Source: Endozoicomonas numazuensis | GTDB taxonomy: Bacteria; Pseudomonadota; Gammaproteobacteria; Pseudomonadales; Endozoicomonadaceae | Length of the DNA: 35,096 nt | Direction of reading: 5' to 3' | NCBI RefSeq assembly: GCF_000722635.1 | Contig: NZ_JOKH01000003.1 | Coordinates: 719,441-754,536 of the forward strand | Notes under the pieces: generated by a model | Told to the model about the DNA's origin: nothing | Database searches by the model: none | What the model saw: the letters and a program-made list of their open reading frames with translations, nothing else | Part shown: one piece after another, positions 22,437 through 35,096 of the stretch | How positions within the stretch are numbered: position 1 is the first letter of the stretch | Layout: the number at the start of each line of letters is the position of its first letter | Program-made: the position numbers and the translations under genes

Positions 22437-24056
22437 ATGACAATAAAAAAACACCTGAGCAGACTGCTGCAGTCTGCGGTAATCGGGGGGCTCGCTGTTT
22501 CTGCACAGGCAGATACCATCAGCGACTTTGAAAAAAGCTGGACCAGCCAGGCGCTGGCTATGCAGCGACAGCTGGATAATCATTCCCCCATCATCAATAA
22601 CAACATTCTGGGCACTCATAACACTTACAATTCAGAAGTCTATCGCAATGCCTTGCGGTATCACGATCCACAGCAGAAGTTCTCCATCTATGACCAGTTG
22701 AGAATGGGGGCCCGGTTTATCGAACTGGACGCCCACTGGACAGCTCACACTCATGGAGCTCCCTGGAAGTGGGGTACGGAGCTGCTGCTCTGTCACTCCG
22801 GCATCGGCAAGGAACTTGGCGACCTGGATATTGGCTGCAGCCTTAAAGACCGACGTTTAACCGATGGCCTTCAAGAAGCACGTCAATGGCTGGATAGTAA
22901 TCCTAACGAAGTCATTATCCTCTATATCGAAGATCACACAAACGGAAAGCATTCTGTTCTCAGACAACAGCTCAACAGTAAGCTGGGCGGCAAGATATTC
23001 CAGAGTGGTGGCTGCAAGGCTATTGGAGATACTCTGACCAAGTCTCAGGTTCTGGAAGCGGGCAAGCAGATCATTCTCTGGAAAGACAAAGGTTGTGCCA
23101 ATGATGGAGAGCTGGCGAATATGGCATTCAACGGTCTTGGCAAAGTCTCCCGAATCTGGGAAGACGGCACCACCGTCGCCAAAATTGTTGATCTCTTCAC
23201 AAACGGAGGCGGTGTAGACCGTATCGAAGCTCATGAAGTGGCCGAGTCCTTTGCCAAGGGTGTGAATATTGTCAATCTGGATGATATGACACCGGGCGAC
23301 AGGGTGGACGCTGCCGTATGGAGCTGGGCCAAAAATGAACCGAATAATCATAATGGCAATCAGCACTGTGCTGTAAGTACTATGTCTGGTCGTTGGGACG
23401 ACCAGAGTTGTTCAGCGAACTATTATTTTGCCTGCCAAAGCAATGATACCGGTGAGTGGGCCCTGAGCTTCAGAACCGGTGCCTGGAATCAGGGCAGCCA
23501 GGCTTGTGGTGAGCTGGGTAACTATCGTTTCTCAGTCCCGACCAACAGTCAGGAAAACGAAAAACTGAAGGCCATCAAAGGCAGCATGTTCAACGTCTGG
23601 CTGAACTATCACGATCAAGGTCAGGAAGGTGCCTGGCAGATTCCCGGTCAGAAAGCCTATCCTCTTCTGGCAGGCTTTCGTGAACTGAGGGATCAACGCA
23701 GCAACCTTTGCCTGGACGTTGAAGGCGGAAACCGTGACAACGGAACCAATGTAAGACTCTGGGAGTGTAATGGCTCCGATGCCCAGAAATGGACTTATGA
23801 TTCAGCCAATGGCTTTTTAAGAAGCAAACTGGGCAAATGCCTGGATAACCGTGGCCAAACATTCAGCAACGGCGAAATCGTTATCTGGGAATGTCTGGAT
23901 AACAATAATATGCGCTTTGACTGGGTGGGCAACTCCCTGAGAAGCCGACACAATGGCTCTATTGCTGTGGATGCCTATGGCGACTGGAAAGGTGCACAGG
24001 TTGGCCAGTGGCAGTACCACGGTGGCAGCAATCAACAATGGCAATGGGGTAACTGA
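22437..24056 (+). CDS. Secreted PI-PLC-like phosphodiesterase with C-type lectin and ricin-B domains
   Basis: A 539-residue exported protein. A signal peptide ends near AQA (residue 25). The PI-PLC X-like catalytic domain (about 45-290) has H61 in GTHNTYN, D98 and H100 in ELDAHW and H120 in LLCHSG, matching the two catalytic His of bacterial PI-PLC. Residues 293-334 look like the end of a C-type lectin domain (WSWAKNEPNN, HCAVS, WDDQSC, FACQ) with the EPN sugar-binding motif. A second Cys-containing segment follows (340-410). Residues about 414-539 are a ricin-type beta-trefoil (CLDVEGG, LWECNGSDAQKW, QQWQW). It probably binds host or mucus glycans and cleaves phosphatidylinositol lipids or GPI anchors; the target is inference. 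Confidence 0.88.
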   Translation: MTIKKHLSRLLQSAVIGGLAVSAQADTISDFEKSWTSQALAMQRQLDNHSPIINNNILGTHNTYNSEVYRNALRYHDPQQKFSIYDQLRMGARFIELDAHWTAHTHGAPWKWGTELLLCHSGIGKELGDLDIGCSLKDRRLTDGLQEARQWLDSNPNEVIILYIEDHTNGKHSVLRQQLNSKLGGKIFQSGGCKAIGDTLTKSQVLEAGKQIILWKDKGCANDGELANMAFNGLGKVSRIWEDGTTVAKIVDLFTNGGGVDRIEAHEVAESFAKGVNIVNLDDMTPGDRVDAAVWSWAKNEPNNHNGNQHCAVSTMSGRWDDQSCSANYYFACQSNDTGEWALSFRTGAWNQGSQACGELGNYRFSVPTNSQENEKLKAIKGSMFNVWLNYHDQGQEGAWQIPGQKAYPLLAGFRELRDQRSNLCLDVEGGNRDNGTNVRLWECNGSDAQKWTYDSANGFLRSKLGKCLDNRGQTFSNGEIVIWECLDNNNMRFDWVGNSLRSRHNGSIAVDAYGDWKGAQVGQWQYHGGSNQQWQWGN

Positions 24057-30089: not shown

Positions 30090-31756
30090 TCATCCTTATA
30101 CTCCAACTTCATGCACATGCCAGATTCTTTCATCTCGAATAAGGAGAATGAGCAGTTTCGTTCATTCGTCCAAAACCTGCTCGACACTGTTGAGAGACAA
30201 TCTGTGCAGATTGAAAAACAACAGGCACAGATCGAACAACTACTTGAAGAAAATGAACAGCTTCGTGCAGAAATCCGACATCTGAAAAAGCATAAAGGCA
30301 AACCCAAAATCAGGCCTAATGTACCTGATGACAAGGATGAACAGGATAGTAGCGCTTCTGAGGAGGGCACTGATCAGAACTCCAGTAGCAACGGCAAGGA
30401 CAACAGCATCCCCCCGAAAAACAAACGACCGAGATCACAACAGCCCGGAGAGACGGCTGCACCACCTCTTGTTGCTGACACCTCTGAGATTCTCAAAGTT
30501 TCTGACCCTCAAGAGGTTGGCGCTTCAAAGGCTATGCGGACTTCTACCATACTGAACTCGACTTGCAGTTTATTACCACCCTGTACCGGCGTGAGTACTA
30601 CCAGACACCGGAAGGTACTGTCACAGCGGCTTTGCCGGAGCATATTAAAGGGCGTTTGGCGACAACCTGAAAAGCCATCTACTGAATTTCTACCATTCAT
30701 GCAGTACAACCCAGCCATTGCTTCTGGACTGGCTTCATGATCATGGCTGCCCGATATCAGAAGGTTCACTAAACAACATTTTGACGAAGGGGCATGGTAC
30801 ATTCCATCAGGAAAAAGAAGAAATTCTGGAGGCAGGACACGCCTGTTCAGACTACCTTCAGGTGGATGATACGGGAGCCAGGCATCAGGGGAAAAACGGC
30901 TACTGTCTGTTTGTGGGTAACCCCTACTTCAGTTATTTTCTGAGCAGTGGTAGCAAAAGCAGAATCAACTTTCTGAGCTGCCTGCAAGGGCAGCAGTCGT
31001 TCTATCTGCTAAACGAAGTCGCCATTGACTCCATGAAGCAGGTCAAGATGTCAGAAAAGTGGATCGCTGGTTTTTCCGCCTGTGGTGAGAAGGCCTTTTC
31101 TTCAAAAGAAGAGTGGGAATCCTTCCTCACTGAATTGGAATGTGCATCCCCTGAGCAAAGACGACTGGCCACCGAAGGCGTTTTAAAGGCAGCACTGAAG
31201 AAAAATAATAGCCTCGAAAATATGATTATCCATAGTGACGGAGCCCGCCAGTTTGATACCGTCTTTGAGCACGCTCTGTGTTGGTACCACGCAGGCAGAC
31301 CTCTGGACAAGCTGATACCGGCAAATGATCTGGAAAGGGCTGCCAGAGACTGGATGCAGGATCAATACTGGCGACTTTATGATGACATAGAGGCCTATCA
31401 GAAAAGCCCCACGAAGGCAGAAAAACAAAGGCTTTACCAAGACTTTGATCACTGGGTACAAACGCAAGTTGACTATCCTGCCTTACGAAAAGTGCTTAGC
31501 CAATTGATGGTCGTCAGGGAGGAGCTATTGCTGGTTCTGGAGTATCCATGACTGCCGCTACACAACAACCTGAGCGAAAGGCAAATTCGGGAATATGTGA
31601 AAAGGCGTAAGGTCAGTGGAGGCACCCGAAGTGACGACGGGAGGGATTGTCGTGATACTTTTGCCAGTTTGAAAAAGACCTGCAAGCAGCATGGGTTATC
31701 TTTTGCCCGCTATCTTAAGGACAGGCTATCAGGTGTCAATCTTGTTCCCCGGTTAC
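30090..31756 (+). mobile_element. Remnant of an IS66-family element
   Basis: The right end is placed at 31756 because the minus-strand sequence starting there reads GTAACCGGGG, and IS66 elements begin with GTAA. The adjoining sequence switches to an isochorismatase gene. No matching left inverted repeat or 8-bp target duplication was found near 30060-30110, so the left boundary is approximate and the element is probably truncated on that side. Confidence 0.6.
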
Positions 31757-31800
31757 CAAAAAGTTTATCGACATTATACAATACAGCTTGTCTACAGTAA
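30111..31800 (+). pseudogene. Degenerate IS66-type transposase
   Basis: The N-terminal part is a coiled coil (ERQSVQIEKQQAQIEQLLEEN region) with a charged linker, as in IS66 TnpC. Three lesions break it: a frameshift near 30510-30525 (after which RFKGYADFYHTELDLQF continues in another frame), a second near 30650 (GDNLKSHLLNFYHSCSTTQPLLLDWLHDHG continues, shown to locate it), and a TGA at 31549-31551. The DDE core is recognisable (YLQVDDTGARHQGKNGYC, IHSDGARQFD, LHNNLSERQIREYVKRRK). The end of the reading frame runs past the likely right end of the element at about 31756. It cannot produce a working transposase. Confidence 0.88.
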
Positions 31801-32327
31801 TCGGGAGAAGAGGTAGACGTACAATCCTCAAGTAAAATGCAATCGTACCCTAAACAATGAGCATCTAGAAGAGTTGCAAGTACGCACTGATCTAGATTTA
31901 TTCCTGCAAAATAGAGTTCCTTGAGGCTATATTCTTTTAGTTTTTTATCTAAATTTGAGGTATGGAAACCACTAATTGTCTGCTTGCTTACGTAGATATC
32001 AGATTTATCTTTCTTTAATGATGAAAGAATACTTGCAGACCAGCTAGATTTCTCTAAAACTTTCTTCGATCCATTTAGCTTTCTCTTCCAATTCATTTCA
32101 GGAGGATATTCATAATTGTTGAATTTTTCTTTCTGAAATTCACTGACACTCTCTAAGCTAGGATCTACTCCCCAATTTACCCAAAAAACTTTCCATTCAT
32201 TACCTCTGAAATGAGAACTTATTGCATTAATTGGCGCTACAATTGAGCTGTAATTATAACCAATATCTTTTTCATTCTTTAAGCAAAACTCATTTTGCAT
32301 ATCAATAATTAAAAGAGCTTTTTCCAT
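31710..32327 (-). CDS. Isochorismatase-family hydrolase in a cassette, 3' end altered by IS66
   Basis: A 205-residue cysteine hydrolase: D9 (LLIIDMQNEF), K115 (SKQTISGF) and C148 (GINLDQCV) form the Asp-Lys-Cys triad of the isochorismatase/nicotinamidase superfamily. The specific substrate is unknown. The ATG at 32327 follows AAGAAAC; codons upstream read through the attC site and are not natural. The body ends naturally around NVDKLFG, near 31757; the last residues come from the IS66 end. The attC site expected downstream is missing, so the cassette was cut. It is AT-rich, like the other cassettes. Confidence 0.85.
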   Translation of the reverse strand: MEKALLIIDMQNEFCLKNEKDIGYNYSSIVAPINAISSHFRGNEWKVFWVNWGVDPSLESVSEFQKEKFNNYEYPPEMNWKRKLNGSKKVLEKSSWSASILSSLKKDKSDIYVSKQTISGFHTSNLDKKLKEYSLKELYFAGINLDQCVLATLLDAHCLGYDCILLEDCTSTSSPDYCRQAVLYNVDKLFGNRGTRLTPDSLSLR

Positions 32328-32353
32328 AAAATGTTTCTTGTTACCAGATAAAG

Positions 32354-32413
32354 GCATAACGCCAAATTCAGGGGCAGCACGCCAGCGCTGTCCCCTAGAA
32401 TTTTTTGTTATGT
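32354..32413 (-). other. attC recombination site, cassette with HNH gene
   Basis: 60 bases. GCATAAC at 32354-32360 and GTTATGT at 32407-32413 are the outer core sites. The interior folds as an imperfect hairpin: AATTCAGGGGCAGC pairs with GCTGTCCCCTAGAATT, with an extra-helical base typical of attC. It directly follows the stop of the HNH gene in the minus direction. Confidence 0.85.
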
Positions 32414-32422
32414 GCATTACCA

Positions 32423-33238
32423 TTATTGGTTGAGCTGTTTTATATGGTTAGAGAAATTCAATGGTAGCGATCCTAAAGTTTCTAATACATAGTCAACTAT
32501 TTTTTTGTCTGAAATATAAAGCTCTATGCTATCACTTTTTTCAGGTATTAAATTAACACCACGATCAATGAAATAAAACCTTCCATCACCCTCTTCGTCA
32601 TTTAAGCCAAACTCTATTTGATGAATTTCTTCATTAGATATATCAAAATTAATATAGAAATCTTTCACTTTTAGCCGCTGCTTCAGAGTGCTTTTGATAG
32701 AGCCAATTGGGACGAAAAAGCTTATCCCCGTATTTTGATAACTACTTTTAATGCTTTCTGAAATAGAAGAGCCACAACGATCAATTGCAAATATATTATC
32801 TGCTATAAAAATTGCGTGATTACATGCTGCATTTTTGGCTACAAAAGGAAAATCTAGTGTTGAGTTTTCATCAGATATTGCATATAAAGAGAACTTATCA
32901 ATCAACTCGTCCAGATAATCAAGGCCATCATTAAAAGAATTTACCTTCCCCCATTTTTTAATGTAAGAATATAAATCATCTCTGTACTTTATAAGCTCTT
33001 TCTTTTTAATACCTTTTGACTGACTAGTAGATGAATCATACCTATCGTGATGATCAAGGCATAAGAAAACCAAATTATTTATATCAGAATTACTTCTATT
33101 TTTGTCAATATGAGCGATCTGACCTTTCTTTTCTCGAAAGTCATTTTCCAATCCAAAACATAGGGCACACCTACGCCTCGATTTTATTAACAGATCAGCT
33201 TCGCTATCTTCGCTTATTTTTACTCGCTTCAATGTCAT
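32423..33238 (-). CDS. HNH-nuclease domain protein in an integron cassette, 271 aa
   Basis: Residues 20-70 hold an HNH finger: C24 and C27 (RRCALC), H43 in GQIAHIDKNRSN, NNL, and C60 with H63/H64 (FLCLDHHDRYD). This fold makes metal-dependent cuts in DNA or RNA. Residues about 90-271 form an unrecognised domain with predicted mixed alpha/beta character, containing AKNAACNHAIFIAD, SFFVPIGSIKSTLKQRL and LNDEEGDGRFYFIDRG. The gene lies between two attC sites, so it is a single-gene cassette. An anti-phage or other defence role is plausible for an HNH protein with an extra sensor-like domain, but this is inference. Confidence 0.85.
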   Translation of the reverse strand: MTLKRVKISEDSEADLLIKSRRRCALCFGLENDFREKKGQIAHIDKNRSNSDINNLVFLCLDHHDRYDSSTSQSKGIKKKELIKYRDDLYSYIKKWGKVNSFNDGLDYLDELIDKFSLYAISDENSTLDFPFVAKNAACNHAIFIADNIFAIDRCGSSISESIKSSYQNTGISFFVPIGSIKSTLKQRLKVKDFYINFDISNEEIHQIEFGLNDEEGDGRFYFIDRGVNLIPEKSDSIELYISDKKIVDYVLETLGSLPLNFSNHIKQLNQ

Positions 33239-33262
33239 AGATTACTTGATATTTACTCTTGC

Positions 33263-33352
33263 ACATAACGCCTGGTTCAGCCGCGCCTCCGACGGCGTCG
33301 TCGTCGGGTGGAGGGGCGCAGCCCCGGAACGAACTGGAATCATTTGTTAGGC
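33263..33352 (-). other. attC recombination site, cassette with GNAT-like and membrane genes
   Basis: 90 bases. ACATAAC at 33263-33269 and GTTAGGC at 33346-33352 are the core sites. The inner arms include CTGGTTC with GAACTGG-type pairing and a GC-rich stem (GGGGCGCAGCCCC). It is the longest of the four sites. The stop codon of the membrane protein gene lies inside the right core. Confidence 0.87.
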
Positions 33353-33757
33353 TATGTTTGAAAGCTTGAATAGTTTTTCTGCTTTATTTAGCAAAATCAT
33401 TGAGATTATGATAAAAACTATAAACCCTGTAAATGCAACTCCTTGAGCAACGAATTCTGGAAAATCTAAATATATTTTCAAAAAGGCCCCAGCTACAAAA
33501 GAACTTAATGAACAAGCAAGGGATACAACTATTGAGACAGAATATTTAAATAATTTTCTAATGTCGGCTGTGTACATGGGTTTATAGCTTATTATTTTTT
33601 TCAATCCATCATAAGCAAGATTTATGAAAATAGACAAAACAACGAATAGATGAAAGCTCTTTTCGGCTTCATAAACAATTTGAAGACCATGAAGATAACC
33701 AAATACTATGAGTAGCCATATTCCAGCAATGATTACTTTGTACGAATTTCTATTCAT
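33347..33757 (-). CDS. Four-helix integral membrane protein in a cassette, 136 aa
   Basis: Four hydrophobic segments at about 7-27 (VIIAGIWLLIVFGYLHGL), 33-52, 70-95 (YSVSIVVSLACSLSSFVAGAF) and 105-125 (GVAFTGFIVFIIISMILL). No family recognised. The start overlaps the stop of the GNAT-like gene by 8 bases, so the two are translated together and travel as one two-gene cassette. Strongly AT-rich. Confidence 0.75.
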   Translation of the reverse strand: MNRNSYKVIIAGIWLLIVFGYLHGLQIVYEAEKSFHLFVVLSIFINLAYDGLKKIISYKPMYTADIRKLFKYSVSIVVSLACSLSSFVAGAFLKIYLDFPEFVAQGVAFTGFIVFIIISMILLNKAEKLFKLSNIA

Positions 33758-34157
33758 AATTTTCTAGTATATTTCTTAATTTTTTGATTGAGATGATCGC
33801 ATTTTTTGGCTCCTTATATTCTTTGAAACCAAATTTATCAGAAAACTGTTTTGAGTTTTCATTCATACTTTCAATAGCAATGTACTTATAGCAATATTTG
33901 TTAGAATGCTCAACTAAGAACTTTAGAAATGATTTACCACTTCCTACCTTGGTTTTATGAAAGAATATTCTTGCAATTACTATTGTATCTTCTTTCCAGT
34001 AGATTGGTTTTGGCTTATACCTTAAATACAAATCATAAGCTTTTCTTTTTGCTGAAATATTATTTGAAAGATCAGCATGAGCTAAAGACTCTTTATAGTT
34101 GAATCTTCCCACCAAAAAGGAATTTAAATCATCACAAAATTTTTCTATTTCTTTCAT
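33750..34157 (-). CDS. GNAT-like acetyltransferase-fold protein in a cassette, 135 aa
   Basis: The C-terminal half looks like a GNAT fold: IVIARIFFHKTKVGSGKSFLKFLVEHS (shown in part) resembles the acetyl-CoA-binding strand and loop with a degenerate Q/R-x-x-G-x-G motif (KVGSG), followed by YKYIAIESMNENSKQFSDKFGFKEY, the typical last strands. The N-terminal 60 residues are basic and unrecognised. Acetyl-acceptor unknown. It is the first gene of a two-gene cassette, overlapping the membrane protein gene. Confidence 0.65.
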   Translation of the reverse strand: MKEIEKFCDDLNSFLVGRFNYKESLAHADLSNNISAKRKAYDLYLRYKPKPIYWKEDTIVIARIFFHKTKVGSGKSFLKFLVEHSNKYCYKYIAIESMNENSKQFSDKFGFKEYKEPKNAIISIKKLRNILENYE

Positions 34158-34176
34158 AATGATGAACTCGCTAAGA

Positions 34177-34231
34177 GCCTAACGCCTAAATCAGGTGCGC
34201 CGTAGGCGTCACCTGGATTTTTTTGTTAGCT
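34177..34231 (-). other. attC recombination site, cassette with PaiB-like gene
   Basis: 55 bases. GCCTAAC at 34177-34183 and GTTAGCT at 34225-34231 flank a near-perfect hairpin: AAATCAGGTGCGCC pairs with GGCGTCACCTGGATTT, with unpaired bases as expected for attC. The right core departs from consensus at one base (C instead of a purine). Confidence 0.87.
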
Positions 34232-34236
34232 GCGTG

Positions 34237-34866
34237 TCAGTTGTTTTGCATTTGTTTAGCTACTGAAACATCTGCACTGTTCTCTGAGTTTGCTAAACCA
34301 CGTACAACACCTGAGTAGTCAGCAGCTGTTTTATTTTGGCTTAACTTAAAGTTGCCTACTATGTCTTCTACGACAACCTCAAGACCAACAACAGCTTTGA
34401 CCAGTTTTTCTGTAAAACCTTCCGGTGCATCGGAAACTGACCAAGGGATATTTTGGTTGCGTTCATGGAAATCAGAAAGGTCATTAAGCTGCTTCAATAT
34501 CCAAGCACTTTCATGTTTGAAATATATGCGCCCTCTTACATGAACAACAGAGTAATTCCATGTAGGAACCGCTTTCCCTGTATCCTTCTTTGATGGATAA
34601 AAGTTCGGACTGATATAAGCATTTGGTCCATGAAATATAAGCAAGACTTCCTGCCCCTCAGAACACTTTTCCCATAGCGGATTTGCTCTAGCAATGTGAC
34701 TTTGCAGTGCTACCTGATTATTCTCTCGTTTTTGAAGATAAAACGGGACATGATCTGCACCTAAAATATTTTCCGTTGATACTATCAGCGTACCAAGCGG
34801 ATATTCTTGAATAAATTCATGCAATCTATCCAAGTTTACTTCTTTGAATTTTGATGGAATGTGCAT
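34237..34866 (-). CDS. PaiB-like FMN-binding protein in a cassette
   Basis: A 209-residue protein of the FMN-binding split-barrel PaiB family, named after a Bacillus transcriptional repressor. Family blocks are MHIPSKFKE, YPLGTLIVS, GADHVPFYL, LQSHIARANPLWE, VLLIFHGPNAYISPNFY, VPTWNYSVVHVRGRI and LVKAVVGLEVVVE (each separate in the protein). The ATG at 34866 follows AAGAG. It is a single-gene cassette between two attC sites. PaiB-like genes are recurrent integron-cassette passengers; the biochemical role remains unclear. Confidence 0.9.
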   Translation of the reverse strand: MHIPSKFKEVNLDRLHEFIQEYPLGTLIVSTENILGADHVPFYLQKRENNQVALQSHIARANPLWEKCSEGQEVLLIFHGPNAYISPNFYPSKKDTGKAVPTWNYSVVHVRGRIYFKHESAWILKQLNDLSDFHERNQNIPWSVSDAPEGFTEKLVKAVVGLEVVVEDIVGNFKLSQNKTAADYSGVVRGLANSENSADVSVAKQMQNN

Positions 34867-34879
34867 ATTTACTCTTAGC

Positions 34880-34944
34880 ACCTAACGCTTGCAGCAGGGG
34901 CGGCGAACACAGTGAGGCGTCCCTTTTGCCTGCACTTGTTAAGT
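34880..34944 (-). other. attC recombination site at the right edge of the visible array
   Basis: 65 bases. ACCTAAC at 34880-34886 and GTTAAGT at 34938-34944 both fit the core consensus RYYYAAC / GTTRRRY. The arms GCAGCAGGGGCG and the complementary GC-rich segment GCGTCCCTTTTGCCTGC pair imperfectly. Since an attC belongs to the cassette upstream in the minus direction, a further cassette should lie at or beyond 34945-35096; no gene is evident in those bases. Confidence 0.85.
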
Positions 34945-35096
34945 GGCCCTGGCCGCTACGATGGTTGGGCTGGCGAGACTCCATTGATATTTTTGGCACC
35001 TGACCTCACCGCCAGCAGATTAATCTATTTTCTGTTTTTTGCTGAGCACTGATTCAGAGTCACTGAGGAGAAAAAAAAGCAAAGCACTTGTAAATG

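Follow-up and report, generated by a model that had tools for sequence, protein, structure and literature searches.

attC sites at the edge of a probable Endozoicomonas superintegron with apparently broken head integrases and an amplified gene-less cassette

The window analysed here, a stretch of 35,096 nucleotides, ends in a run of genes that alternate with hairpin-forming sequences resembling attC, the recombination sites of integron cassettes. To what kind of system do these sites belong, and where is the integrase (IntI, encoded by intI) that would have assembled them? The window corresponds to C3:719441-754536, in a genome of 6,342,227 bases on 31 contigs whose host is most likely the sponge isolate Endozoicomonas numazuensis DSM 25634. 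A sequence-only reading had proposed an isolated pool of environmental cassettes in a probable symbiont. The latter part agrees with our view, since the host looks like Endozoicomonas, a genus of marine-animal symbionts, and is itself a probable symbiont; in place of the isolated pool we see the far end of a superintegron that has intI heads. We put at about 0.9 the probability that the window sites mark the end farthest from the integrase in a sedentary chromosomal superintegron of Endozoicomonas, which is a known kind of system, with arrays that are probably frozen or nearly so.

Four sites lie on the minus strand, at 32354..32413 (60 bases), 33263..33352 (90 bases, with a long terminal structure), 34177..34231 (55 bases) and 34880..34944 (65 bases), and have the RYYYAAC and GTTRRRY boxes, the folded stem with unpaired bases on one arm and the single orientation of attC. 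They were scored with a covariance model (R1) built from 20 attC sites adjoining intI in ten genomes, all of other families. For this model TIGR02249 was searched against 276 genomes of the class, 109 of which matched at E <= 1e-90, the DNA beside 20 intI genes was taken, and the 20 training sites were picked by eye from 28 candidates listed by a script; standard pairs fill 89.2% of pair cells in the training set versus 71.9% when shuffled. With filters off, R1 scored all four window sites best on the cassette strand, three of them strongly (60 bases, 40.3 bits, E 1.6e-7; 90 bases, 27.0 bits, E 2.1e-4; 55 bases, 43.2 bits, E 3.3e-8) and the 65-base site weakly (14.8 bits, E 0.16). Background in the window consisted of the 55-base site on the wrong strand (10.6 bits) and a best other place at 8.6 bits, and no match at E <= 1 was obtained across 50 kb of non-array sequence (L013, L014 and L030). 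The exact lengths and places assigned by the sequence-only reading are confirmed by this independent model, whose scores do not fall below background for all four sites, and sites and open reading frames (ORFs) alternate as it described, all on the minus strand.

Other tests of the sites were less uniform. Folded as DNA on the recombining strand, the 60- and 55-base sites beat their shuffles (z of -5.0 and -3.4, respectively). A motif finder, the weaker test, recovered two of the four sites plus two chance places in the window, where shuffled windows gave a mean of 0.6 and a maximum of 4 and the shuffled 3.2-kb region a mean of 0.12; a looser first version had returned many additional window matches. 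The window gave no match in an Rfam scan at gathering thresholds, and no tRNA that could serve as an integration site was found in it. We accept the 65-base site as attC on the strength of a repeated cassette described below, whose 22 assembled copies end in the same sequence; the site also scores 34.1 bits with a second model, R2, which was built from 148 matches within the genus and is hence not independent. The window sites would be expected to recombine with attI under IntI, for which the exact boundaries of the 22 copies provide indirect support.

The window itself holds no N, and it stops inside a cassette, the next base being N. Searching the whole genome with R1 returned at least 48 sites at E <= 0.01, with 150 of 705 candidates scored. 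In the stretches read, R2 recognised 128 distinct sites, to which C6, C7 and C1 add a further six (134 in total), and it recognised none at E <= 0.05 in five non-array stretches (L013, L014, L030, L080 and L082). Each array keeps to one strand (plus for C3 58-140 kb, C3 250-261 kb and C1 185-222 kb; minus for C3 752-809 kb, C4 and C17), and the stems covary in 120 distinct sites, in an alignment fitted to the model. The arrays sit on contigs of 0.9 and 1.7 Mb, from whose size we infer that they are chromosomal. Two blocks are common to C17 and C3 (7401 bp at 99.96% and 1797 bp at 99.9%), and C17 may in part be an assembly duplicate of C3, which would lower the site counts slightly. The longer block, C17:18062-25462 and C3:781985-789385 (7.4 kb, 99.96%), may be either such an assembly duplicate or a segmental duplication. 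The AT-richness noted earlier for the genes extends to the arrays, with a median cassette body of 38% G+C over 100 cassettes against 47.1% in the published genome. Scanning 54 array proteins matched 41 Pfam families, the 25 families listed having at most two members each, and a few of the proteins were defence-like in PADLOC (for instance PDC-S08, 1e-138; ThsA, 4.7e-20). By eye, a RelB/RelE-like toxin-antitoxin pair lies at L009:5238-5766, against the cassette direction.

That no integrase is in view holds within the window, where no intI adjoins the array, as in a cluster of attC sites lacking integron-integrases (CALIN); it does not hold for the array, which reaches an intI fragment 55.6 kb past the window end, across gaps. 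This N-terminal fragment (C3:810183-810428) is an 80-residue ORF with about 64 residues in common with a longer copy at C3:56456-57397, one of two matches to the intI family over the cut-off, the other being C6:77135-78055. Fragment and longer copy are alike at 99.0% over 1253 bp, which span the intI start, an intergenic GTTAGGC core recognised by eye and a first cassette with a 217-aa gene; the two C3 heads are in inverted orientation. At C3:805.2-809.1 kb the cassettes adjoining the truncated head form a tandem repeat (1022 + 403 bp, present twice), one unit of which contains a single-base N. In the longer copy, an in-frame TAG occupies the position at which the orthologues of G001 (E. arenosclerae ab112) and G009, as well as the C6 integrase, carry the tyrosine of IYTHV, which we take to be the integrase nucleophile. 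Its dN/dS is approximately 0.06 and 0.07 against the G001 and G009 orthologues, and 0.05 between these two, such that apart from the stop the gene looks constrained. Both copies of this lineage (lineage A) thus appear broken, at least the longer one recently, and we infer a loss of activity. The C6 integrase (lineage B) is 52% identical to lineage A and is the only intact one found in the genome; it is complete (315 aa), keeps IYTHV and can be aligned over nearly its whole length with the solved IntI4. Only two attC occur in C6:48001-88000, a stretch with a large N gap inside, about 19 kb from this gene. A LexA-type box with at most one mismatch lies 28-33 nt before intI in all 11 heads examined, a count that leaves out three truncated intI loci without a start; the C6 box has one mismatch. 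By eye, a group II intron-like reverse transcriptase lies at C6:55564-56691, an attC being about 1 kb away. In E. arenosclerae a lineage-B intI adjoins the protease gene that here stands next to the lineage-A head at C3:56 kb, and integrase lineages may have been exchanged at one locus.

These features match a superintegron in array size, in cassettes on one strand and in presence in related species; where a functional intI with attI would be expected at the head, intI is truncated or has an internal stop, the LexA-type box and GTTAGGC core being present. If capture followed the mechanism and order established for other integrons, an SOS-controlled lineage-A IntI would have taken up promoterless genes as circular cassettes and inserted them at attI, recombining this site with the bottom strand of their folded attC, so that the oldest cassettes would lie farthest from intI. 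The window's array would then start at the lineage-A fragment (C3:810183) and run approximately 58 kb across gaps down to a transposase remnant in the window. The second head, at C3:56-58 kb, has nearly the same first 1.25 kb, and C1, C4, C17 and other places hold further arrays; either head could be the ancestral one. With both lineage-A copies broken, a frozen or nearly frozen state is probable for the arrays, unless the C6 IntI, of lineage B and intact, serves them in trans.

The four window attC are only 39-59% identical to each other, from which an assembly from diverse sources had been proposed. Single-linkage clustering, at an 80% threshold, of 91 distinct sites of this genome (drawn from 105 of the 128) gave clusters of 42, 28, 13 and 2 with six singletons, and the window's four fall within the three large clusters. 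That they differ from one another thus does not speak for a recent assembly from diverse sources, because each belongs to an own-genome cluster; judged by their sequences, all four are native types. The 90-base site, from the cluster of 28, belongs to a family common to relatives, and the array of the sister genome G004 has dozens of sites with 80-93% identity to it. What stands of the earlier claim is the lack of uniformity, mean identity being 57% in the 91 own sites versus 83% in 42 distinct G004 sites (from a sample of 50). Across the 11 genus genomes, own included, ten have matches to the attC model and eight an intI over the cut-off. The intervening sequence is not fixed in the relatives: among the matches listed at the DNA level, only G010 of ten relatives has a long match to the region, covering one gene (the PaiB-like gene described below, 79%, with a similar attC upstream), and the other listed matches are attC stretches.

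The cassette closed by the 65-base attC is itself repeated. This 447-bp gene-less cassette occurs in the arrays of C3, C1 and C17 as 22 long copies, 95-100% identical to the query, of which 19 are whole and three cut by gaps; besides these there are three pieces of two more copies, including a piece at the window end. C17 holds five of the 22, up to three of them in the blocks common with C3, and the true copy number may thus be 19 to 22. The 16 gap-free copies are 446-448 bp long and have varied neighbours, with 12 kinds among 14 readable on the left and 10 kinds among 11 on the right; a few copies have a common neighbour, mainly C17 with C3. Likeness among copies ends exactly at the G-TT recombination point. 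Over the 22 copies the 385-bp body carries 24 substitutions. No protein-coding gene lies between its attC sites: a coding function for the longest ORF (82 aa) was rejected, with 5 synonymous changes, 6 non-synonymous changes and 1 stop change; 2 of the 22 copies also contain an indel. The body gave no promoter-like match and an ordinary RNA fold (z of -0.9), and a permissive Rfam scan of the cassette gave two matches, both far under gathering scores. An exact 24-mer of the body had no match in genome_contigs or viral_contigs, nor did the body match plasmids, searches that may miss near kin or diverged copies. At the DNA level it had no match past the attC in the ten other genus genomes, where diverged copies may be missed, and a more sensitive nhmmer profile revealed weak relatives in the arrays of G004 and G003.

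G004 has amplified cassettes of its own. A set of 93 of its cassettes includes 19 near-copies of a 455-bp body and a second group of 15, mostly of 515-672 bp. The 19-copy cassette shows no coding bias, the synonymous share being 0.28-0.32 on both strands (expected, 0.21-0.25) and the strands alike. A motif, CTGGCN{15,45}TGCAAYGCCAG, links the genomes: it has 29 matches in the own genome, all inside arrays on the cassette strand, and 45 in G004, 43 of them in the array on the cassette strand. In G003, seven of nine matches adjoin attC-like matches or lie no more than about 4 kb from them, and all three in G001 are beside attC on the same strand. Single matches in G002, G005, G006 and G009 may, like the remaining ones in G003 and G004, be due to chance; G007, G008 and G010 have none, and the reversed pattern occurs once across the 11 genomes. 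These counts reflect amplification and are not independent finds, some of the same cassettes having served to define the motif. In some of the cassettes that carry the motif there is also an ORF, on one strand or the other, of up to 358 aa. An RNA structure for the motif module was considered and is not supported, none of five predicted pairs being changed on both sides. In G010, a different repeated body of about 360 bp occurs in four copies (G010:C1:3328097, 3333277, 3335617 and 3337182) with a similar 65-base attC. We tentatively postulate, at odds somewhat below even, that Endozoicomonas superintegrons own a gene-less cassette family marked by CTGGC-(15 to 45)-TGCAAYGCCAG, amplified separately in different species (22 copies of one here, 19 of another in G004), which could act as a portable regulatory unit (promoter or RNA) or as a selfish cassette, favoured for its copying and not for any gene.

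How the repeated cassette spread bears on whether the superintegron is indeed frozen. It may still be active, with the C6 IntI recombining attC in trans and spreading the cassette: that enzyme is complete with its catalytic motif and its LexA-type box, and 22 near-identical copies in arrays on three contigs point to recent movement. We regard this as rather unlikely, given the distance between C6 IntI and lineage A (52% identity), the only two attC, about 19 kb away, in the gapped stretch around its gene, and the fact that the movement may predate the stop or be due to homologous recombination, as the 7.4 kb at 99.96% between C17 and C3 would suggest. Repeated cassettes and insertion sequence (IS) elements could also have given rise to the repeat copies, the split arrays and the double head without any integrase, through homologous recombination and segmental duplication among them. 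Long near-identical blocks between arrays (7401, 1797, 1659 and 1253 bp), the inverted heads and the few copies with a common neighbour argue for it. The varied neighbours of most copies and their exact attC boundaries, as an integrase leaves, argue against it, and we consider it a serious possibility that falls short of an even chance.

The superintegron reading has its own weak points, all of which weigh against it. By R1 alone the 65-base attC, at 14.8 bits, is under the usual threshold, and the DNA folds of the 90- and 65-base sites (z of -0.1 and -0.7) are no better than shuffles. With two of four folds ordinary, the hairpins might be some other dispersed palindrome, such as a REP-like element or a transposon end. 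This is highly improbable given independent R1 matches that are better on the cassette strand, 134 sites that are strand-consistent per array, two arrays headed by intI and the covarying stems in 120 sites. The assembly raises a further doubt. As far as its published description was available, it combines short reads and 2-kb mate pairs with some manual scaffold joins, and the arrays contain N gaps of up to 7.4 kb, so that the link from the window to the head at 810 kb, and the duplicated head, could be wrong, and a sequencing error could account for the stop in the C3 intI. Repeat-driven mis-joins that enlarged the window's array are suggested by the many N gaps at repeats and the near-duplicates of C3 on C17. 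We nevertheless judge an artefact of this kind improbable, as the four sites, the genes and the transposase all lie within the N-free window and a relative has the same kind of array on a 5-Mb contig.

From the intI-proximal to the distal side, the window's cassettes comprise the gene-less repeat tail, a PaiB-like gene, two small genes, an HNH-like gene and an isochorismatase-family gene, all on the minus strand. The tail (34945..35096) is the 3' part of the repeated cassette, cut by the assembly gap at the window end (C3:754376-754536, 100% identical to query 306-466, next base N). The PaiB-like gene (34237..34866) encodes an FMN-binding protein (PF04299, E 4.4e-60) with solved PaiB relatives (2ol5 and 9vyc). 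It is followed by genes for 135 aa (33750..34157), acetyltransferase-like by eye only with no Pfam match at E <= 1, and for 136 aa (33347..33757, from the ORF list), by eye probably a small membrane protein with no convincing Pfam match. The next gene (32423..33238, 271 aa) is HNH-nuclease-like, PF13392 matching at E 0.004, under its cut-off. The last one (31710..32327), an isochorismatase-family hydrolase (PF00857, E 7.9e-33), lacks an attC of its own: its 3' end overlaps an interrupted IS66-type transposase on the plus strand, and no R1 match lies between the two. This remnant (30111..31800, several ORFs, extent by eye) bounds the array on the left; its PF03050 scan covered the single ORF 30718-31551 (E 1.6e-5). 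The earlier statement that the genes are not resistance genes stands, none of the five having a resistance-family match in Pfam or NCBIfam. Elsewhere in the window, 22437-24056 encodes a protein of 539 aa that carries a ricin-type lectin domain and matches C-type lectin and, under the cut-off, PI-PLC X.

Among the titles listed by a literature search, with subscription journals mostly outside its coverage, there was no study of Endozoicomonas integrons and none of an amplified gene-less cassette; in the accessible portions of texts naming both Endozoicomonas and integrons, the latter appear in reference lists only, or as class 1 integrons measured in coral mucus and seawater.

Superintegrons are best known from Vibrio, where intI stands at the array head. 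The available parts of two studies describe Vibrionaceae superintegrons with very many cassettes, one strand per array and gene-less cassettes (PMC11014356, PMC11551772). The Endozoicomonas system resembles these in all three respects and in its intI heads; unlike them, it consists of several dispersed arrays, has three attC clusters, appears to have both head integrases broken and carries one gene-less cassette 22 times. In Xanthomonas, according to the part of the source consulted, arrays outlive a truncated or absent intI and hold up to 33 cassettes in one array (PMC12444791); the lost integrase is alike, whereas this genome has well over 100 sites. A 2008 survey of intI, seen in part, found a stop, frameshift or large indel in nearly a third of the genes, and more than one intI in about a fifth of lineages (PMC2426708). 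Compared with the pseudogenes covered there, the stop here falls on the catalytic tyrosine codon of a gene that looks otherwise constrained. Most of 29 Vibrio gene-less cassettes tested had sense-strand promoter activity, and identifying such promoters in silico is stated to be impossible in the sections available (PMC11014356). Our repeated cassette likewise has no ORF between its attC sites, and it is amplified, whereas those sections describe no amplification of a single such cassette. The sister array of G004 shares the genus, an attC family and amplified cassettes without evident genes, but has an intact intI and mostly one 83-base attC. The comparison thus offers a second marine genus with arrays of more than 100 sites, in which integrases that appear broken, yet belong to a gene that looks constrained, allow the fate of arrays after loss of the enzyme to be compared. 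As gene-less cassettes are the most repeated cassettes in two Endozoicomonas species, they also allow a comparison of what such cassettes are for, and the state of the integrases and the amplified gene-less family are the parts worth following.

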